Assembly (NCBI RefSeq): GCF_026011735.1 | Contig: NZ_BRVN01000010.1 | Location: forward strand, 62,001-126,000 | Source of the DNA: Dietzia sp. NCCP-2495 | GTDB lineage: Bacteria > Actinomycetota > Actinomycetes > Mycobacteriales > Mycobacteriaceae | Reading direction: 5' to 3' | Length of the DNA: 64,000 bases | Part shown: positions 53,152 through 64,000 of the stretch, piece after piece | Layout: every line of letters begins with the position of its first letter | How positions within the stretch are numbered: position 1 is the first letter of the stretch | Notes under the pieces: generated by a model | Database searches by the model: none | The model's input: the letters and a program-made list of their open reading frames with translations, nothing else | What the model was told of the DNA's origin: nothing | Position numbers and translations under genes: made by a program

Positions 53152-54450
<1,299 letters not shown>

Positions 54451-54521
54451 GCAAGCAACGCAGTAAGGCCTGACGGTAGACACGTCACGGCGAGACGGAC
54501 AGGTAGTCGAGAGGAGGGCTG

Positions 54522-55445
54522 ATGGCCCGCCCACCGCGCCCCTCGGACCGCCGGGGTGGCGGACGCGATCGCGCGTCGTCCCGGCGGCCCGGGGAGGCGT
54601 CGGGTCCTGTCCGGCGCCGCAGTCCCGACCGCCGCAGTCCCGACGGCCGTGGCACTGACCGTCGTACTACGGACCGCCGTGGCGCAGATCGCACCACCGG
54701 GTCGGGCGGCAGCACAGCCAGCGACAGCGGGGCCGGCTCCGGCTCGGGGGCCGACCGCAGCCGCCGAGGCGTGCCGCAGCGGCGTACGCCCTCGCGCGAA
54801 CGGGATCGGCCCGCGCCGGCATCCGCCAGGTCCGGCCGGGTCGGCACCACCGCGCATCCGGAGGCCCATCGGCTGACCACCCGGACGGATCTGTCCGAGA
54901 CGGTCCTGGGGCCGAAGAACTACACGCCCCGGCGGATCGGACTCCTCGCCGTCGTCGCCCTCATCCTGCTCGTCACCGTCTCCTTCCCGCTCCGGAACCA
55001 CTACCAGTTCCTCCGCGACGAGAAGGCGGTGGCGCAGGAGCGCGCCGCGCTCGAGCGGACCATCGCCCAGCTCGAGGCCGAGCAGGAGATGCTGTCCGAC
55101 CCGGCGTACATCGAGCAGCAGGCCCGCATCCGGTTCGGCGCGGTCAAGCCGGGGGAGACCCCGTACCGCGTGAGCACGGTGGACCCGGTGGAGCAGGCGG
55201 CGGCCGAGCAGCGGGCGGCGGAGATCGCGGCGTTGCCGTGGCAGACGCGAGTGTGGAACTCGATCTCCGTGCCTGCCGATCCGGTCATGCCGGAGGAGTC
55301 GATCCTCGACGGCACGTCGATCCCGGGCGGTCCCGACACCCCGCCCGTCCCCGTGATGCCGGATCCGGGCGGCGTCACCGACCCCGCCGAGCAGAACCCC
55401 GACCAGTCCGGCGCGGCCGATCCCGGCGCCGAACCGGCTCCGTAA
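54522..55445 (+). CDS. ftsB: FtsB/DivIC-family septum formation initiator with long Arg-rich N-terminus
   Basis: The product is 307 aa, unusually long for FtsB (about 100 aa in E. coli). Residues 1-135 are Arg/Ser/Gly/Asp-rich and probably disordered. A membrane helix is at about 138-156, a coiled coil (LERTIAQLEAEQ) at 162-195, then the conserved YIEQQARIRFGAVKPGE. The C-terminal 70 residues are Pro/Asp-rich. It is a divisome protein, following eno as in mycobacteria (Rv1024). ATG 54522 has GAGGAGG upstream. Confidence 0.85.
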   Translation: MARPPRPSDRRGGGRDRASSRRPGEASGPVRRRSPDRRSPDGRGTDRRTTDRRGADRTTGSGGSTASDSGAGSGSGADRSRRGVPQRRTPSRERDRPAPASARSGRVGTTAHPEAHRLTTRTDLSETVLGPKNYTPRRIGLLAVVALILLVTVSFPLRNHYQFLRDEKAVAQERAALERTIAQLEAEQEMLSDPAYIEQQARIRFGAVKPGETPYRVSTVDPVEQAAAEQRAAEIAALPWQTRVWNSISVPADPVMPEESILDGTSIPGGPDTPPVPVMPDPGGVTDPAEQNPDQSGAADPGAEPAP

Positions 55446-55467
55446 CTTCGCACAGGAGGACCCCAGC

Positions 55468-56019
55468 GTGAGCGCTGACCCAAGCGTTTCCCAGGACGAT
55501 CTCGACGCCATCGCCGCCCAGCTCGGCCGGCCGCCGCGTGGCGTGTTGGAGGTGTCCTACCGCAGCCCGGACGGGCGGCCCGGCGTGGTCAAGACCGCCC
55601 CGCGGCTCGAGGACGGCACCCCGTTCCCCACGCTGTACTACCTCACCGATCCGCGGCTCACGGCCGAGGCGAGTCGGCAGGAGTCGGCGGGGATCATGCG
55701 CGGGATGCAGGCGCGCCTGGCCTCCGATCCGGACCTGGCGGCGAACTACCACGCCGCGCACGAGCGATACCTGTCCAAGCGCAACGCGATCGAGGACCTG
55801 GGTACCGATTTCTCCGGCGGCGGCATGCCCGAGCGAGTCAAGTGCCTGCACGTGCTCATGGCGTACGCGCTGGCCGAGGGGCCGGGCGTGGTGCGGCTCG
55901 GCGACGAGTCGGTGGCGCTGGCGTGCGAGGCCGGGCTGCGCGGCACGGCCCTGCCCGGCGACTGGCCGACGCCCGAGGAGCTGGGCGTGCCCGACTACCG
56001 CGCGATGGACGAGCAGTGA
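55468..56019 (+). CDS. DUF501 family protein
   Basis: The product is 183 aa from GTG 55468, with GGAGGA 10 nt upstream. The DUF501 core includes GRPPRGVLEVSYRSPDGRP and GGGMPERVKCLHVLMAYALAEGPGV. The family is actinobacteria-specific and of unknown function. Its last codons overlap the ppx start by 4 nt. Confidence 0.9.
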   Translation: MSADPSVSQDDLDAIAAQLGRPPRGVLEVSYRSPDGRPGVVKTAPRLEDGTPFPTLYYLTDPRLTAEASRQESAGIMRGMQARLASDPDLAANYHAAHERYLSKRNAIEDLGTDFSGGGMPERVKCLHVLMAYALAEGPGVVRLGDESVALACEAGLRGTALPGDWPTPEELGVPDYRAMDEQ

Positions 56020-57014
56020 CCGCCGCTGGTTCGGTTGGCTCCGGCGCGGTGCGTGTCGGCGCGATCGACTGCGGCACCAACTCCATCCGCCTTCTGGTGG
56101 CCGAGGGCGTCTCCGGCGAGGCCGGGCTCGTGGACGTGGTGCGCGAGATGCGGATCATCCGGCTCGGGGAGGGCGTCGACGCGACCGGCCGCCTGTCCGA
56201 GGGAGCGATCTCCCGCTGCCGCACCGCACTCACCGACTACGCGGCGACTATGGCCGAGCTCGGCGTGCAGTCGGTGCGGATGGTCGCCACCTCCGCGACC
56301 CGCGATGCGGCCAACAAGGACGACTTCTTCGACATGACTGCCGAGGTGCTGGGCGCCCACTTCCCGGGCGCTGTCGCCGAGGTGATCTCGGGGCAGACCG
56401 AGGCCGAGCTGACCTTTGCCGGTGGCGTGTCCGATTTGTCGCCGACCGACGGCCCGTTCGTCGTGACCGATCTCGGCGGCGGGTCCACGGAGATCGTGGT
56501 GGGCGAGCTCGTCCGTGGTGAGGTGCGCCTATTGGGCGCCCGCAGCCTGGACATCGGCTGCGTGCGAATCACCGAGCGGGTTCTGCACTCGGACCCGCCC
56601 AACCCTGACGAGATCGCCGAGGCCCGCGGGGTGGTGTCGGCAGCGCTGGCTGAGGCTGGCGACGTGCCGGTGGGCCGCGCGGCCCGCTGGGTGGGCGTGG
56701 CGGGCACCTTCACCACGATGAGTGCGCTGGCGCAGAACCTGGGGGAGTACGACCCCGAACGAATCCACGGCAGCGTGATCTCTCTGGACCGGATGCGCGA
56801 GGTGTGCGACCGCCTGGTGGCCTCGTCGGTGGCCGAGCGGCGGAGCCTGGGGCCGATGCACCCCGGTCGCGCGGACGTGATCGGCGGAGGCTCCATCGTG
56901 GTGCAGGCGCTGTGTGATGTGATGGAGCGCGCGGGTTTGTCCGAGCTCACGGTGAGTGAGAAGGACATCTTGGACGGCATCGCGATGTCGGTGCTGACCC
57001 GCCTGGCCGGTTAG
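56016..57014 (+). CDS. ppx: Exopolyphosphatase/pppGpp phosphohydrolase family protein
   Basis: The product is 332 aa. The actin-like ATPase fold has AIDCGTNSIRLLV (P-loop-like), VVTDLGGGSTEIVVGE, and the C-terminal GVAGTFTTMSALAQNL. It should degrade polyphosphate or pppGpp. Same position as Rv1026 (ppx2). GTG 56016 overlaps the DUF501 TGA by 4 nt. A tRNA-Leu gene follows 49 nt downstream. Confidence 0.95.
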   Translation: MTAAGSVGSGAVRVGAIDCGTNSIRLLVAEGVSGEAGLVDVVREMRIIRLGEGVDATGRLSEGAISRCRTALTDYAATMAELGVQSVRMVATSATRDAANKDDFFDMTAEVLGAHFPGAVAEVISGQTEAELTFAGGVSDLSPTDGPFVVTDLGGGSTEIVVGELVRGEVRLLGARSLDIGCVRITERVLHSDPPNPDEIAEARGVVSAALAEAGDVPVGRAARWVGVAGTFTTMSALAQNLGEYDPERIHGSVISLDRMREVCDRLVASSVAERRSLGPMHPGRADVIGGGSIVVQALCDVMERAGLSELTVSEKDILDGIAMSVLTRLAG

Positions 57015-57063: not shown

Positions 57064-57137
57064 GCCCCCATAGCCCAATTGGCAGAGGCAGACGGCTTAA
57101 AACCGTTTCAGTGTCGGTTCGAGTCCGACTGGGGGTA
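57064..57137 (+). tRNA. tRNA-Leu (anticodon TAA), short variable arm
   Basis: A cloverleaf of 74 nt: acceptor GCCCCCA/TGGGGGT (G1 to T72 wobble), D arm GCC/GGC, anticodon stem GACGG/CCGTT around CTTAAAA (anticodon TAA), variable loop of only 5 nt (TCAGT), T arm GTCGG/CCGAC. CCA is not encoded in full. A leucine tRNA normally has a long class II variable arm, so this one is unusual; either it is truly atypical or the amino-acid identity differs from what the anticodon suggests. Confidence 0.85.
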
Positions 57138-57140
57138 CCG

Positions 57141-58823
57141 CTACTCGATGGTGAACGGTAGCGCTCGCCGGAGTAGCGACGCCATGTCCTCCCATGCGGC
57201 GGATTCGTCTCTGCAGACCTGTGCCGTCTCCTCGTCCTCCTCGCCTTCGGCGGATTGGTGCCAGCTGATCGCTTGCTCCTCACTCAATCGGATGCACGTG
57301 AGAATGAGCGACCGGTCGCGCCGCATCAGCCGTGCCGCCAGTTCCGGGTCCACGACGAGGTCGGGCTCGTTGTCCATATGGATCAGCGCCAAGAGCTCTT
57401 CGGGTAGGTCGTCGTCGCCGGACTCGTCCTCGCCAGGTTCGACGTTGTCGTCGCCGTCCGTGCTTCCGCCGAAGAGGACGGTGCCGCCGGTCCGGGAGGC
57501 GATCTCCTCGTCGGACTCGTCGATGATTCTGCTCGCTGTGACGATCACGTCGATGAGGTGCGCCGGGATGAACGGTTTGGCGGGGAAGTCGCAGGTGGCC
57601 ATCACGTCGTCGTCATGGACATGGAAGCGGACGTACAGCGACCATGAGTTCAGATCCTTGAGGATCTCAGAGGCTCGTTCGGGGTGCCGCATCTTTGTGA
57701 CGGCGAAAGCGGTGACGGAAACGGCCATGGGTTCGCGCACCTGGATGAGTAGTCCGGCGCTCCCGGCACGGATAGGGATGACGCCGTCGTCGTCTGGAGG
57801 AACATACATCCCGTACATATTTCGCAACACATGCGAGACGGCCCACTGCAGCTCTTCCAGCGTCCCTGCGAGGTAGGGCTGGTCGATCGGTAGAAGCTCC
57901 TCGTCCTCGTGGGGGTCAGCGGAAGGCGGGGGTGCGTGGAGCTCGTCCTCGACCGGAGCGGGCTTGAGGAACGACGGGTGGGGAATCCCGAACACCCGGC
58001 GGAGCGTATCGACCACGAGTACGGCGACCGCGTCGATCGCGTCTACGGGAGCCGACACGTAGAAGTTCTGGATCGAGGGTGTCTCGCCAGGTGCGGACGG
58101 AGGGTTCCACCCCAGAGCGAGCAGGTCGCCGATCTGGATTGCGGACAACCGGGAGGCGGCCGGCAACTCTTGATTGCTCGATACCTCGACTAGAACGGTC
58201 TCGCTTCTGTCAATCACGAACGCATTGATGAACGGCGAGGCGTCGCCGAGTGAATTGTCAATGCATAGGGAGAGGTAGGTGTCGTCGTCGAGTGAGAGAA
58301 CACGTCCGACAAACCCATCGCCGAATTCTTCCCATGCGCCGCTGATCTGTCTTTCGTCAGAATCGCCCGGTGAGATGGTTCCTTCCTCGGCATCGAGATC
58401 GGCATCCTCGAACAGCTCACTCGGGTGATGAATCCCGAAGACCTTCTGAACGGTTGTGGTGATGACCTCGGCCATCTCGGCGGCGAACGTGATGTCGACG
58501 ACGGCATGGAAGTGAGGGCTTCCATCGGGATCCGCTGGCGCGGTGGGAGCGAACCAGCCGACTTGGAGCAAACTCTGCTCTTGGTCGCTAGTGAGTTTGT
58601 GTGACCCACTCAGGTACTGATTGCTCGAGACCTCAGCGCCGACCTGGTCGCCGTCGATCGACCTCACGATCTGGACAAACGGTGCGCCATGGGTGCCCGT
58701 GTCGGTGAGTTCGACGGTGTAGACAGCTCCGGGCTCGAGTTCGACGATCCGTGTTGTGAGGTATTCGGTGAAGCGTTTCCAGTCGGCGTTCGGTCTCTCC
58801 GAGACACCAGTGTCGTCAGTCAT
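57141..58823 (-). CDS. TY-Chap/YbjN-like peptide-binding chaperone-type protein
   Basis: The product is 560 aa starting at ATG 58823. Two tandem homologous modules are seen at about residues 16-138 and 160-287: both have EVSSNQ, an (L)LxxGW stretch and a (V)FGIxHPS ending. A YbjN-like fold follows (about 323-440: LAGTLEELQWAVSHVLR ... VRFHVHDDDVMATCDFP). An acidic linker and a helical C-terminal piece end the protein. I relate this to the TY-Chap domains that accompany bacterial conflict proteins; the match is from memory and partial. The stop is 3 nt from the tRNA-Leu. It may be a stress or defence chaperone. Confidence 0.6.
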   Translation of the reverse strand: MTDDTGVSERPNADWKRFTEYLTTRIVELEPGAVYTVELTDTGTHGAPFVQIVRSIDGDQVGAEVSSNQYLSGSHKLTSDQEQSLLQVGWFAPTAPADPDGSPHFHAVVDITFAAEMAEVITTTVQKVFGIHHPSELFEDADLDAEEGTISPGDSDERQISGAWEEFGDGFVGRVLSLDDDTYLSLCIDNSLGDASPFINAFVIDRSETVLVEVSSNQELPAASRLSAIQIGDLLALGWNPPSAPGETPSIQNFYVSAPVDAIDAVAVLVVDTLRRVFGIPHPSFLKPAPVEDELHAPPPSADPHEDEELLPIDQPYLAGTLEELQWAVSHVLRNMYGMYVPPDDDGVIPIRAGSAGLLIQVREPMAVSVTAFAVTKMRHPERASEILKDLNSWSLYVRFHVHDDDVMATCDFPAKPFIPAHLIDVIVTASRIIDESDEEIASRTGGTVLFGGSTDGDDNVEPGEDESGDDDLPEELLALIHMDNEPDLVVDPELAARLMRRDRSLILTCIRLSEEQAISWHQSAEGEEDEETAQVCRDESAAWEDMASLLRRALPFTIE

Positions 58824-58988
58824 GCCTCGGACACTATGCGCTTGGGCTGCGCGCACGCGCCGGTTTTCGCTCTCAGGTAAGCCTCGGCTCGAGTACTCAT
58901 GTCGCTCGTGCCCTATCCGCCAGACTGAGGTGAGACACCCGGGCTGGCTGGTTGAGAGGCTGGGGCGCGAGCAGAAGGAGAACCCAGC
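58824..58988. other. Spacer between the TY-Chap gene and the IS3 remnant
   Basis: 165 nt with no gene. The part near 58925-58950 (TGAGGTGAGACACCCGGGCT) may contain the left end of the IS3 element, but the right inverted repeat is missing, so this cannot be confirmed. Confidence 0.35.
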
Positions 58989-59447
58989 ATGACGATCACT
59001 GCGACCACTGACACGGCCATGAAGGCCTCGCAGACGACGCCGACGGTGGCCCCGGCAGAGCATCCAGCTCGGGCCCCGCGGGCCGGGCGGCCGGCCCGGC
59101 GGACATTCACGGCCGAGTACAAGCGGCGCATTGTCGCCGAGTACGAGCAGGCCCCGACAGGTGAGAAGGGTCGGGTGCTGCGCCGGGAGGGTCTCTACGA
59201 TTCCAGCGTCAAGCAGTGGCGTGCCCAGATCGAAGCGGGAACACTGGGCACCGTGTCCAAGAGAAGGCCTCGGGCTGGCCAGTCGCCGGAGCAGGCGCGT
59301 ATCGCTGAGCTGGAGAAGCAGATCAGCAAGCTCGAGTCAGACGCCGCCCGGAAGGACAAGGTCATCGCCGACCGTGACGCCGCGTTGGAGGTCATGGGGA
59401 AAGGTGTCGCGTTCTTGGAGGCACTCTCGAAGAAAAACAAGGGGTGA
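58989..59447 (+). CDS. IS3-family transposase OrfA
   Basis: The product is 152 aa. The helix-turn-helix FTAEYKRRIVAEYEQAPTGEKGR and RREGLYDSSVKQW are the OrfA DNA-binding region, and a coiled coil (IAELEKQISKLESDAARKD) follows. It looks intact, but its OrfB is cut off just downstream, so the element is dead. It overlaps the next fragment by 4 nt. Confidence 0.82.
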   Translation: MTITATTDTAMKASQTTPTVAPAEHPARAPRAGRPARRTFTAEYKRRIVAEYEQAPTGEKGRVLRREGLYDSSVKQWRAQIEAGTLGTVSKRRPRAGQSPEQARIAELEKQISKLESDAARKDKVIADRDAALEVMGKGVAFLEALSKKNKG

Positions 59448-59638
59448 GCCGGGCCGCCTGGCGCACCTGGCAGGCCGAAACGGCGCAGCTGCTGACCGCG
59501 CTGCTGGGCGTGGTGCGGGCATGCGCCCTGGTCGGCCGGTCCCGGGCCACACACCATCGGCAGGCGAACCCGAAGCCGCGCTCGTACGGTCCGCACCCCA
59601 ATTCTGCGGAACGCAGGGCTGGCCCCCGAAGGCAATAG
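59444..59638 (+). pseudogene. Truncated IS3-family OrfB
   Basis: About 64 codons after GTG 59444. The residues resemble the N-terminal helical part of an IS3 OrfB (ALLGVVRACALVGRSRATHHR). The reading frame ends at 59638 with no DDE region present, so the gene is a fragment. Sequence then changes to an IS630 transposase piece. Confidence 0.75.
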
Positions 59639-59687
59639 CGATGGCCCCCAGTGAGACGAATATTCACAGCCAGCCCCGCTGCACCTG

Positions 59688-59996
59688 GTGATGGACAACT
59701 ACGCCGCCCACAAGCACGCAAACGTCAAGGCCTGGCTGGCCGAAAATCCCCGGTTCAAGGTCCACTTCACACCCACCCACGCGTCGTGGATGAACCTGGT
59801 TGAGGTGTGGTTCGGCATCGTCGAACGCCAGGCCATCCGCCGTGGGGTCTTTACGTCCGTCAAGGACCTCAACGCGAAGATCCGCGCCTTCATCGACGGC
59901 TGGAACCACCGATCCCACCCCTTCGTCTGGACGAAAACCGCTGACGAAGTCCTCAAGAAAGCCAACCGTAAGAAGACTTCAAATGCGGACCACTAG
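59688..59996 (+). pseudogene. IS630-family transposase, C-terminal fragment
   Basis: The frame enters from an in-frame stop at about 59652, then reads PLHLVMDNYAAHKHANVK, giving about 102 residues to TAG 59996. It carries the second Asp (MDNYAAHK) and the third acidic residue (WMNLVEVWF) of the DDE triad and a normal C-terminus. The N-terminal helix-turn-helix and first Asp are missing. It is a 3' remnant abutting the IS3 piece. Confidence 0.85.
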
Positions 59997-60005
59997 ACCG
60001 GCCAG

Positions 60006-61817
60006 TCAGAGGGGAGATCGTTGATGGTTCGCGACGATCCCTCGGAGCCAGGTTTCGAGCGGCAGGAGGGCGCGCGGCGCACTTCGGGAAGGGCTAAGGT
60101 GGGCGCGCAGCAACTCGGTCGGAAGGTGTGGCTTGGTCTTATTCGTCGTCTTACGAGCGGAGTTCCATCCTTTTGACCCGAGATTCGCCGCCAGTTCCTC
60201 GTAGCCGTTCTTCCCGTCCGCAAATCGCTCTGCCGTTGATCTATCTACTTCACCTAGATTGTCTGGTCCAAGAAGGGAGGCTAGTTTCTTCTGACCGATG
60301 CTGTCGAGCACTAGTCCCTCAAGGTCAGACGACAGTACGAACGCGTCCCACGACTGGAGCGCGGCATTTAATTGAGCCTGCTGGTTTATAGCTTTTGTTA
60401 GATTGGTTACGATTTGGTCGGCGAGCTCGATGAGACCACGAAGTTGCTCTTGAGTTGGCTTGTCGGATCGCAACTTGAGAATCTCAAAGAGTTTCCGCTT
60501 GCCACCGCGCTTATGTACGCCATCCTTGTCGGTGATGATGTAGGCTCGAACATCGAAAAGGTGAGCAAGGCTTATGAGATGCGGAATGGAGTCGATGCTG
60601 GAAGCCTCGATCACGGAGATTCCCATGGCGTAGTGCCCACCAGCTCCGCCCGTGATCCGTTCCAGAAGGTAGTCGACCATCAACTGGTCGCCGTAACCTT
60701 CGACGATGATCACCGCGTTAGCGAAAACCAACTCACTGTTAGTTGCGTCGCAGAAGCGAGTCAGGCGGCCTTCATCCGCTGCTGTGAAATTCCGACGGCT
60801 TGCTGCGTAAGTCATCCCTTTTGGACTAAACGGAAGTCGAACGATCCGACTCACGGAAAACGAGTCCACCAAGACTGGACTATGTGTCGTCACTATGAGT
60901 TGCGCATTGGCGGAGATGTCACTCAGGATCTTAGCCATCGCTCGCTGCGTCTGGGGGTGAAGGAAGGCCTCGGGCTCCTCGATCACGAATACGACCTTGC
61001 CTGTCGACTGTCCACTCTTCGATGCAACGTACCTCAGGATTCCGAGGACCAGGGCTGATTGGAACCCAGTGCCACGCTCCCCGATTGACACCTCGATCTC
61101 GTCTTTGCTGGTGATCACGGCTTGCTCCAGCATGCCGCGCAGGGCATGCCGTGAGCTTGGCAATTTGATGCCCAACTCGCGTTCACGGAAGGGAAGTTCC
61201 GTCGCAACTGCGGCCACCGACTCCGCCAGAACCTTGTGGACGAGTGTCTCGACCGGTGCTATCGCGTCCTCGAACTCCCGCTGTATCTGCGTGCGACGCG
61301 ATCTGCCCGCGTGAACGAGTACACTTTCGAGTGTCTCGTAGAGACGCACGAGGGACTGATCGCCTCCCGCTTGGCCAACCCCACTCACACGCACAGATGG
61401 GATGTTGACGAAGCTGAATGACTCGAGCACTTGGTCGTAGAGCTCGCGTGCACGCGTCGCCCCGTGACTCGCATGATACGTAACGTTTCCGGCTCGAGAG
61501 CAGGCGATCTTAATCGAGAACGAGTTGTCGGTGATCGCCTCGGCGAAGTACTCGGCCTCGTCGTCCGTTAGGCCCGCAAATCGAACCTCGATGCTGGACA
61601 TCATCCGAGGTCCCCCATTCACGTAGTAGTCGTTCTGGGGCTTCATCCGCTGCAGTTCTTCTCTCGAGGGATCCGAGAAGAAGGTCTCGAGGACGCGCAA
61701 CAACGAGGACTTGCCCGCATTGTTCGGCCCCGCGATTAGCTGGAGGTGTGGGTCCAGGTCGATGCTCACACGATTGAATCCGAGGAATCGTTCGACACTC
61801 ACTCGATCTATATGCAC
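60006..61817 (-). CDS. OLD-family ATP-dependent nuclease (P-loop ATPase + TOPRIM)
   Basis: The product is 603 aa. GTG 61817 follows GAGG at 8 nt and gives a clean N-terminus; the longer open frame upstream is antisense-type text over the hsdR end. N-terminal SMC-like P-loop GPNNAGKSSLL (about 28-38), Walker B VVFVIEEPEAFLHP (273-286) and VTTHSPVLVDS. C-terminal TOPRIM: VIIVEGYGD (about 367) and TDKDG (about 425). It fits class 1 OLD nucleases, or a GajA-like protein, but no UvrD-type GajB is beside it. Its GC content is clearly lower than in the core genes. It lies 142 nt after hsdR. Confidence 0.85.
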   Translation of the reverse strand: MHIDRVSVERFLGFNRVSIDLDPHLQLIAGPNNAGKSSLLRVLETFFSDPSREELQRMKPQNDYYVNGGPRMMSSIEVRFAGLTDDEAEYFAEAITDNSFSIKIACSRAGNVTYHASHGATRARELYDQVLESFSFVNIPSVRVSGVGQAGGDQSLVRLYETLESVLVHAGRSRRTQIQREFEDAIAPVETLVHKVLAESVAAVATELPFRERELGIKLPSSRHALRGMLEQAVITSKDEIEVSIGERGTGFQSALVLGILRYVASKSGQSTGKVVFVIEEPEAFLHPQTQRAMAKILSDISANAQLIVTTHSPVLVDSFSVSRIVRLPFSPKGMTYAASRRNFTAADEGRLTRFCDATNSELVFANAVIIVEGYGDQLMVDYLLERITGGAGGHYAMGISVIEASSIDSIPHLISLAHLFDVRAYIITDKDGVHKRGGKRKLFEILKLRSDKPTQEQLRGLIELADQIVTNLTKAINQQAQLNAALQSWDAFVLSSDLEGLVLDSIGQKKLASLLGPDNLGEVDRSTAERFADGKNGYEELAANLGSKGWNSARKTTNKTKPHLPTELLRAHLSPSRSAPRALLPLETWLRGIVANHQRSPL

Positions 61818-61959
61818 GTCGTCAACCTCATGGAGCTCCTCGCATCTAAGTGTGGGTGTGTTAGACGGTTCGTCCGCTTGCGATGGCGACCATGCGGTGG
61901 CGGTGGCTGTCGCGATTATCTGCCGTGGTACCAGGGTGGCAGTTAGGTGTCCGTGGTTC

Positions 61960-64000
61960 TCAGTAATACTCGCGTACGTATGAGTACGCCTTGTCGAAGA
62001 CATCAGCGTCGCGGATCTTGAACTTGATGTAGAGCGTCCTCCGAAGCGCCTTCTGGACCTCCCGTTCCCCCTCGTGCGTGCCCTGCCATCCGGTGAATCT
62101 CGTAGCCCGCACGACTTCGTCGATCTCGTGGACGACGTTTTCGACGATGATCGGAGTCTCTTCGGTCTTGACCGCCTCGAACAGTTCTGTGAGAGCGGCC
62201 TTGCCCTGTTCCTCGGGAGGTAGTTCCTCGATCTCGTTCTCCGCCGCCACGGTGTCCTTGGCCAGCTCGAGGAGCTCGCGCAGGAAGTCGAGGTTCGCCT
62301 GCTGGAGGTCTGAGTACTTCTCACGCAAGGCGTTGAGCCGCTTGCCGAGCGCGACGAACTTCGGGTTGCCCCGATGCTTTGCGATTCGGGCGGTGATGGC
62401 CTTCGCGATCTCCTCGGCGTCGATGTCGCTTCTGTGTCCGCTGAGGTACTCCTCGATGGTGTCGGCGTTGAGGACAATCGTGTCGGTTTTCGCCGGGATC
62501 TCGACCTGGATGTTGGAGTTGATGATCTCGAGAGTCTTCGGCCTGAGCGCGATCCACCGCAGCCAGCCACTGTTGTCCGGCGGTTTCACCGAGCGATAGA
62601 CATCGGTGAGCCACACGAAGTCCGCACGGTAGGGGTTCACCACCGGACGAGGGCTCAGGGCCTCGAATAGTTGTGAAACGACGCTGTAGGTGCCCGCGAA
62701 CTCGTCTTTCGTCTCATCGTCCGCCAGGGCCTGTTGCGCCGCGATGAGGCCCTCGTATCCGTGGATAGTGCGGTCTACACCAGGGAAGAACCCAAGGGCG
62801 TCACGCACGGCCGGTTCGAGCTGGCCTTCGAGCTCGTCGAGATTTGTGATGACCCGCCGGACACTCTTCTCATCGAAGTCCAGTGACTTCATCGTGTCGT
62901 CGAAGACACCGAGATAGTCGACGATGAGGCCGTGTGTCTTCCGCGGTGGGTACACGCGGTTCGTGCGACAGATGGCCTGGAGCAGCGTGTGCTCCTTAAG
63001 TGTCTTGTCCAAGTACTGGCAGTACAGGATCGGCGCGTCGAACCCGGTGAGCAGCTTCGCGGTGACGATCAGAATCTTGAGTGGGTCGGACGGGTCGTTG
63101 AACCGGTCGACGATCACCTTCTGCTCGTCCGGATTCGGCTCCCATTTGGCCCACTCGGGCTTACTGTCCCGGCTCTTGGACATCACGATAGTCGAGATCT
63201 CAGGGTCGAGAATCTTGTCGAGGGCGGTCTTGTAGGCGACGCACGCTTCCTTGTCGTAGGCGACGACTTGTGCCTTGAAGCCCTCCGGCTCCACCTTGGT
63301 GGTGAAGTGCTCCGCGATGTCTTCGGCGATCATCTGGATGCGGTTCGGGGCCTTGATGAGCCGCTCAATACTTGCGGCCCGTTTAGACAGGTTTGCACGC
63401 TCCTTCTCGGACAGATCCTCTGAGTCGGCCAGCTCGGCGAACGCTGTGTCGATGGCGTCCTGGTCGATCTTCATCGACGAGGGGCGGACCTCGAAATGCA
63501 GCGGGAGTGTCGCACCGTCACGGATCGAGTCCTGGAACGAATACTTCGACAGGTACCCGCCCTCGTCACCGGGATGCCCGAATAAGGCGAAAGTGTTCCG
63601 GTCACGCTTATTGATCGGGGTACCGGTGAGTCCGAAGCGGAAAGCGTTCGGAAGTGCCGTGCGCAGCCGGGCACCGAGGTCGCCCTCCTGGGTGCGGTGT
63701 GCCTCGTCGACCAGAGCGATGATGTTGTGCTTGTCATCCCACACATCCGGCGGTGTGGCGTCGAGCTTGACGTCCTGGAACTTCTGGATCGTCGTGACGA
63801 TGATCTTGCGTGCACCCGCCCGCAACAGCTCCTGGAGCTCCGCACGGGAGTCGGTGGACACCAGCCCAGCCACATCGGAGGCATTGAACGTCCCGGTGAT
63901 CTGGGTATCCAGGTCGGTACGGTCGACGATGATCAGGATCGTCGGGTTCTTGGCCTCGGGCAATGACTTGAGCTTGAGCGAGGCGAACAGCATGAGCAAT
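61960..64000 (-). CDS. hsdR: Type I restriction enzyme HsdR, C-terminal part
   Basis: The frame is open to the right edge of the window, so the start, nuclease domain and first motor motif are missing; about 680 residues are seen. Motor motifs present: IIALVDEAHRTQEGD (DEAH box), FRFGLTGTPI (motif III), LIVTAKLLTGFDAPIL, and LLQAICRTNRVYP (motif VI). The helical C-terminal part for MTase binding follows. It cleaves unmodified DNA during translocation. HsdM and HsdS should be found beyond 64000 or elsewhere; they are not in the window. It stops 142 nt before the OLD gene. Confidence 0.93.
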   Translation of the reverse strand, partial: LLMLFASLKLKSLPEAKNPTILIIVDRTDLDTQITGTFNASDVAGLVSTDSRAELQELLRAGARKIIVTTIQKFQDVKLDATPPDVWDDKHNIIALVDEAHRTQEGDLGARLRTALPNAFRFGLTGTPINKRDRNTFALFGHPGDEGGYLSKYSFQDSIRDGATLPLHFEVRPSSMKIDQDAIDTAFAELADSEDLSEKERANLSKRAASIERLIKAPNRIQMIAEDIAEHFTTKVEPEGFKAQVVAYDKEACVAYKTALDKILDPEISTIVMSKSRDSKPEWAKWEPNPDEQKVIVDRFNDPSDPLKILIVTAKLLTGFDAPILYCQYLDKTLKEHTLLQAICRTNRVYPPRKTHGLIVDYLGVFDDTMKSLDFDEKSVRRVITNLDELEGQLEPAVRDALGFFPGVDRTIHGYEGLIAAQQALADDETKDEFAGTYSVVSQLFEALSPRPVVNPYRADFVWLTDVYRSVKPPDNSGWLRWIALRPKTLEIINSNIQVEIPAKTDTIVLNADTIEEYLSGHRSDIDAEEIAKAITARIAKHRGNPKFVALGKRLNALREKYSDLQQANLDFLRELLELAKDTVAAENEIEELPPEEQGKAALTELFEAVKTEETPIIVENVVHEIDEVVRATRFTGWQGTHEGEREVQKALRRTLYIKFKIRDADVFDKAYSYVREYY

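Follow-up and report, generated by a model that had tools for sequence, protein, structure and literature searches.

A predicted defence hotspot to the right of tRNA-Leu(UAA) in the genus Dietzia, with a PacII-type restriction-modification operon

For core defence hotspots of Pseudomonas aeruginosa, recombination through the flanks has been suggested in the part of PMC10250203 that was accessible to us. Type I restriction-modification (R-M) systems with two different methylase subunits, M1 (motif NPPF, N6-methyladenine (m6A)) and M2 (motif NPPY, N4-methylcytosine (m4C)), are described in the available text of PMC9613975, together with the structure of PacII (7VRU). Here we report on a locus of Dietzia sp. 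NCCP-2495 that displays likeness to both. The window is a stretch of 64,000 nucleotides, positions 62001-126000 of contig C10 (133501 bases), in an assembly of 3.69 Mb and 64 contigs. The original prediction, made from this sequence alone, had placed a defence-type island at the 3' end of tRNA-Leu(UAA) in this window. Contig C10 continues for 7.5 kb beyond the window and ends at window coordinate 71501, 14.4 kb after the tRNA and inside insertion sequence (IS) DNA; positions in our locus L002 are converted to window coordinates by adding 53999. Genomes, contigs and loci are referred to by our own handles (G, C and L; the own genome is G000). Among the literature matches listed, no paper on a defence hotspot in Dietzia was found.

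The left edge of the locus is formed by eno, a DivIC/ftsB-like gene, a DUF501 gene and ppx (53173..57014, forward strand; Pfam matches enolase, DivIC, DUF501 and Ppx-GppA), and the edge of the hotspot itself is tRNA-Leu(UAA) (57064..57139, forward strand; ARAGORN and Rfam). That this gene block terminates in a tRNA had been proposed before, and Pfam, ARAGORN and Rfam agree. The nine closest named relatives of the Ppx protein are all from Dietzia, with 78-92% identity. Core synteny stops at tRNA-Leu(UAA), and foreign DNA of lower GC content extends from there to the contig end. The GC content is 0.698 over positions 1-57000 vs 0.53-0.62 over 60-64 kb, and four core genes have a GC content at third codon positions (GC3) of 0.89-0.93 vs 0.66-0.82 for six genes of the island, in line with the earlier statement that GC is lower in the last 4 kb of the window.

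A total of 23 Dietzia genomes, including the own one, were searched, and Ppx is present at E 1e-50 in 18 of these, leaving 17 relatives for comparison (G301, G309, G310, G313 and G316 were left out). In all 17, tRNA-Leu(UAA) follows ppx. The 1.1 kb to the left of the tRNA display a BLASTN cover of 0.87-1.0 in 16 relatives and of 0 in G317, the most divergent one. To the right, cover is 0 in 17 of 17, with G300 and G299 offering less than 0.8 kb. Content to the right is replaced between species: it is common to 3 of the 153 pairs that can be formed from the 18 genomes, namely G305, G308 and G297 mutually. A gene content and order kept beside the tRNA in most relatives, or core-like GC and codon use, would speak against an island; none of the 17 shares the DNA to the right, and GC as well as GC3 differ from the core.

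The tRNA itself varies at its end. At the third-last base of tRNA-Leu(UAA) (TACC end, 57135-57139), 14 of the 18 genomes have C; G307 has G, and the own genome shares T with G296 and G312. Because this base varies between genomes, it may have arrived with the inserts.

In G304, G308, G311 and G315, common gene content returns 41-46 kb beyond the tRNA, and a 442-aa and a 662-aa protein mark the right edge there. Checking both flanks, the left edge is seen in 17 relatives and the right edge in these four; the two sides of the own genome are not joined. Its right border is hidden because the contig stops in an IS. Copies of the 442- and 662-aa proteins on contig C4 were considered as the own right border and rejected, the adjacent DNA not being shared with the stretches of the relatives. 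Copies of the last 403 bases of C10 on C40 and C5 are similar without being identical and yielded no link.

Defence genes recur to the right of the tRNA throughout the genus. A PADLOC scan (E 1e-10) of 33 open reading frames (ORFs) from relatives, chosen largely for their size and position, displays matches for 25, and 8 are without match (one each in G306, G304, G298 and G315, and four in G317). Thirteen relatives offer 5 kb or more to the right of the tRNA, and 12 of them carry recognisable defence proteins within approximately 18 kb; G302, G306, G300 and G299 offer shorter stretches and are not counted (the G302 stretch opens with a Schlafen-group-3 helicase, that of G306 with IS110). Type III R-M proteins are found in G305, G308 and G303, the last also with an Orf5/HEC-06-like protein. 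A HKD+Snf2 helicase stands before the contig end in G297, and G305 and G308 have the same helicase ahead of their type III genes. G296 carries type I R-M. JetC (Wadjet) is seen in G315 and, by similarity to the G315 protein, in G304 and G296; a type II methylase is additionally present in G315, and a PD-T4-6-like kinase in G304. DISARM DrmD/DrmA are located in G314, DruE-like helicases in G298, G312 and G307 (in G307 with DpdE), and type IIG R-M with AbiU in G311, where Druantia II DruE/DruF follow further on at 22-28 kb. As a control, ten proteins from the left side of the window were scanned, three of which match MAD3, MAD8 or AriA models partially, in the ATPase domain (50-102 bits).

Because the left side is kept, the right side is exchanged and defence proteins recur in nearly all relatives with sufficient DNA, the region to the right of tRNA-Leu(UAA) is a predicted genus-wide Dietzia defence hotspot. 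The defence-type island of the original prediction is thereby largely upheld, with regard to both the point at which it begins and its deviating composition.

In the own genome, the principal content is a type I R-M operon on the reverse strand, read from loci inside and outside the window. It comprises hsdM1 (67588-69159), hsdM2 (66062-67591) and hsdS (64902-66062), all in L002 outside the window, and hsdR (61960..64902, the window part reaching to 64000), which encodes 980 aa and matches TIGR00348 with 487 bits (cut-off 284.55). Consecutive genes in the order hsdM1-hsdM2-hsdS-hsdR overlap by 4, 1 and 1 nt. A search to the right for hsdM and hsdS had been proposed originally, and hsdS, hsdM2 and hsdM1 are indeed located there. 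These four genes, the OLD gene and the TY-Chap gene (see below) are open frames with zero internal stops, which is in agreement with the hsdR and OLD-type nuclease named in the original prediction.

The presence of two hsdM genes could be an accident that has left two unrelated type I systems side by side. A stretch before hsdM1 (L002:15164-15580, window 69163-69579), beside a broken IS256, resembles by eye the end of an hsdS gene, which would fit such an event; it has no Pfam match and may be what is left of another type I system. The overlap of hsdM1 and hsdM2 argues against an accident, and so does the recurrence of the pair. HsdM is matched (E 1e-50) in 35 of 296 genomes of the phylum, and two adjacent copies occur in two of these, the own genome and G043, where the order is the same (identity 56% for M1, 64% for M2 and 51% for R). 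The same order is found on a plasmid of Streptomyces hirsutus (M1 69%, M2 74%) and on one of Exiguobacterium aurantiacum (M1 50%, M2 60%), hosts of different phyla. Scanning IMG/VR with the Dietzia M2 yields 24 loci, a sample that leans towards that M2; in 18 of these M1 stands directly before M2, each position being best scored by its own family. A match to S follows in 17 of the 18 and a match to R in 16; the R match is located upstream in L262 and on the opposite strand in L266, and the loci without S or R match (L250, L267) end first. Four further loci (L259, L261, L270 and L271) start at or inside hsdM2 and are uninformative on M1. Because this order, with the same families, recurs in G043, on two plasmids and in most IMG/VR loci, the M1-M2 pair appears to be mostly an inherited unit. 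An accidental pairing is refuted for M1-M2 by this recurrence and, as an account of the two genes, is highly improbable; it could still apply to the fragment before hsdM1. As a side observation, 2-4 kb separate the hsdS and hsdR matches in L254, L255, L258, L264 and L273.

Profiles built from four M1 and four M2 sequences distinguish the two chains of the PacII structure. The M1 profile scores 680.9 bits with 7vru_A and 577.5 with 7vru_B, the next entry being 3lkd_A with 310.6, and the M2 profile scores 712.8 bits with 7vru_B and 534.7 with 7vru_A, again followed by 3lkd_A (273.9). Catalytic motifs were compared in 22 pairs drawn with the Dietzia M2 (own, G043, the two plasmids and the 18 IMG/VR loci). 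All 22 M1 carry NPPF and all 22 M2 carry NPPY. The second pocket motif of M1 is AGEF in 19 and AGEY in 3, the own protein having AGEY; that of M2 is AQEF in 20, including the own protein, and AAEF in 2. By these scores and by the NPPF and NPPY motifs, the restriction system is assigned to the PacII-type non-canonical type I R-M systems, a known but less common class, of which the Dietzia system would be a new and apparently intact member. The idea that the dual hsdM arrangement is an undescribed variant was dropped, as PacII is already described in the available text of PMC9613975.

Based on this dataset, we hypothesize that a chromosomal hotspot has its left end on the right side of tRNA-Leu(UAA), in which species-specific anti-phage modules would follow a fixed ppx-tRNA edge. 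HsdM1, HsdM2 and HsdS would form an M1-M2-S methylase acting on a bipartite site, M1 being predicted to place m6A on one strand and M2 m4C on the other, and HsdR would cleave DNA that lacks this modification. Further cargo would be a TY-Chap chaperone and a stand-alone OLD nuclease, with dead IS pieces in the intervening DNA. Turnover of the modules may proceed mainly by IS activity and by homologous recombination through the conserved flanks, with no resident integrase. Taken as a whole, we consider this explanation probable.

Some observations weigh against it. The far border in the own genome lies beyond the contig end and is unseen. The PADLOC matches in relatives are single proteins from 33 selected ORFs and not full system calls, and the control is small, consisting of the ten proteins left of the tRNA and of no random sites. 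The outgroup-like G317 has the tRNA and displays no defence match among four proteins scanned; its stretch holds binding-protein-dependent (FecCD-type) transport genes and a histidine kinase. Finally, the IMG/VR loci L269 and L272 have a partial M2 with upstream DNA that contains no M1 match.

The original prediction had also regarded the tRNA 3' end as an integrase attachment site. Accordingly, an integrative element (an island, or the remnant of an integrative and conjugative element) may have used a recombinase of its own to integrate into the tRNA-Leu(UAA) 3' end, with the integrase and the right attachment site (attR) either past the contig end or decayed, and with successive elements giving rise to the diversity. 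The position of the break, which coincides with the tRNA 3' end in all relatives examined, the variable third-last base, and the contig end that conceals the own far border would be consistent with this mechanism, as would the presence of elements of this kind at tRNA-Leu(CAA) in the own genome and in G311. Traces of a recombinase are not found: PF00589 integrases occur in 22 of the 23 genomes and PF07508 recombinases in 6, and neither family is matched in the DNA examined at this tRNA, which covers 18 genomes and, in six of them, approximately 56-58 kb on a chromosome-sized contig. The window had been described before as lacking an integrase, and no phage-type integrase is present on the whole of contig C10.

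Remnants of the tRNA are likewise absent from the stretches examined. Searching tRNA-Leu(UAA) against the 23 genomes (E 0.001) returns the gene itself, tRNA-Leu(CAA), four half copies and matches of 23-27 bases, and the gene itself aside, no half copy or short match falls within the stretches at this site. The half copies of the own genome and G311 belong to tRNA-Leu(CAA); those of G302 and G298, for which the parent tRNA was not checked, are located away from this site. A half copy of tRNA-Leu(UAA) is recognised neither in the own assembly nor elsewhere among the 23 genomes. The last 46 nt of the tRNA were compared with the DNA downstream of it in 18 genomes (stretches of 0.5-58 kb): the longest match is 13 bp, and 14 of these genomes have none of 12 bp or more.

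The elements at tRNA-Leu(CAA) serve as a positive control, and because they were found, the search method is able to detect integrative elements. In the own genome, a tyrosine integrase stands alongside tRNA-Leu(CAA) (L011 4827-6089; G000:C20:4827-6181), and a 50-base identical copy of the 3' part of this tRNA is located on C2 (C2:441568-441608, L005); in G311, integrase and half copy bound 14.7 kb. The half-tRNA at G000:C2:441568-441608 was considered as the missing attR and rejected, its 50 bases identical to tRNA-Leu(CAA) assigning it to the other element. An attR in the form of a second tRNA 3' end, as expected by the original prediction, is not found in the own assembly, the own far border lying past the contig end. 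An attachment-site mechanism is therefore not supported by any positive trace, with the own far end beyond the contig, and we judge insertion of an integrative element at this tRNA rather unlikely.

Turnover without a resident integrase appears more likely than an integrase at this site. A more specific proposal is that the 3' end of tRNA-Leu(UAA) acts as a genus-wide exchange point, at which modules would be swapped by recombination via the ppx-tRNA edge and free of any integrase; the apparent attachment site would then be the homologous-recombination border of a shared immune locus. This proposal is tentative, and we give it somewhat less than an even chance.

The cargo nearest to the tRNA is a gene for a predicted peptide-binding chaperone of 560 aa with TY-Chap3, TY-Chap1 and Chap-C domain matches (57141..58823, reverse strand). 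A TY-Chap-like chaperone beside the tRNA had been predicted originally, and the domains are found; its stop codon (57141-57143) lies one base beyond the tRNA end, and not three as had been stated. The available text of PMC9503650 names TY-Chap families as part of predicted immune systems that would counter viral ADP-ribosylation. The locus shows no recognisable partner gene of these systems, and the chaperone looks like independent cargo. TY-Chap proteins with approximately 45% identity over much of their length are present in G309, G310, G305 and G296. A segment in G298 (G298:C35:143-340, L189) is 67% identical to the C-terminal part and is located approximately 51 kb after the same tRNA, at a contig end.

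The next two features on the forward strand, an IS3-type orfA remnant (58989..59447, profile match) without its orfB and a 3' fragment of an IS630 transposase (59688..59996) that covers the last approximately 70 of 299 profile positions only, correspond to the dead IS3 and IS630 pieces recognised before. Beyond hsdM1, outside the window, L002 contains a broken IS256 in two transposase pieces (approximately 69805-71114, reverse strand) and, on the forward strand from 71121 on, the first part of an IS3-type orfB, which is cut off where the contig ends at 71501.

An OLD-family ATPase/TOPRIM nuclease is encoded between the IS630 piece and hsdR (60006..61817, reverse strand; GTG start codon at 61817 by our choice). 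AAA_15 and OLD-like_TOPRIM match above cut-off, GajA/Old models match as well, and the best PADLOC models are GajA. The gene follows hsdR on the same strand at a distance of 142 bp, which could suggest a functional add-on nuclease of the type I enzyme, acting with it or upon its defeat. Several results argue against such a role. A homologue (E 1e-20) is present in the own genome alone among 296 genomes of the phylum, and none was found in viral contigs. Plasmid homologues are approximately 25% identical (best 20 of 601 records). BLAST with this OLD gives no match in the related dual-hsdM loci, in which other OLD families were not searched. The GC content of the gene is below that of hsdR (0.568 vs 0.608). 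Because co-occurrence was not found, a part of the OLD protein in the R-M system is given up as very unlikely, and we take it for a stand-alone nuclease and independent cargo.

The locus after ppx and tRNA-Leu may serve as an address for finding known and unknown defence systems of Dietzia. An actinobacterial PacII-type operon with deviating second pocket motifs would provide natural variants for testing the selectivity for m4C and m6A. The occurrence, in one genome, of a tRNA-edge hotspot that looks integrase-less and of an ordinary tRNA-integrase element turns hotspot turnover into a testable question.

Compared with known systems, the locus resembles a tRNA-borne integrative element in that foreign DNA begins at the tRNA 3' end, also at tRNA-Leu(UAA). 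It differs in that the tRNA-Leu(CAA) element has an integrase and a 50-bp tRNA copy, and neither is found at tRNA-Leu(UAA). The OLD protein is similar to GajA of Gabija in its combination of an AAA ATPase with an OLD-like TOPRIM domain; by the partner feature it is not Gabija, because the adjoining UvrD-like helicase GajB was not found beside it. The restriction system shares with PacII two distinct M subunits, each matching its respective chain best, one S and one R. As far as the available text of PMC9613975 goes, the published second pocket motifs are AGEF for M1 and AAEF for M2, from which the own AGEY and AQEF differ, and an arginine given there as conserved in M2 but not in M1 is present in four of four M1 and four of four M2 aligned here. 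The core hotspots of P. aeruginosa belong to another phylum, and Dietzia is compared between species of a genus and not within a species; moreover, the right edge in Dietzia is known from four genomes, the own one not among them. Within the accessible part of PMC10250203, the likeness to those hotspots extends to a fixed core edge near a tRNA or tmRNA, variable defence content, and the lack of a single mobile element as owner.

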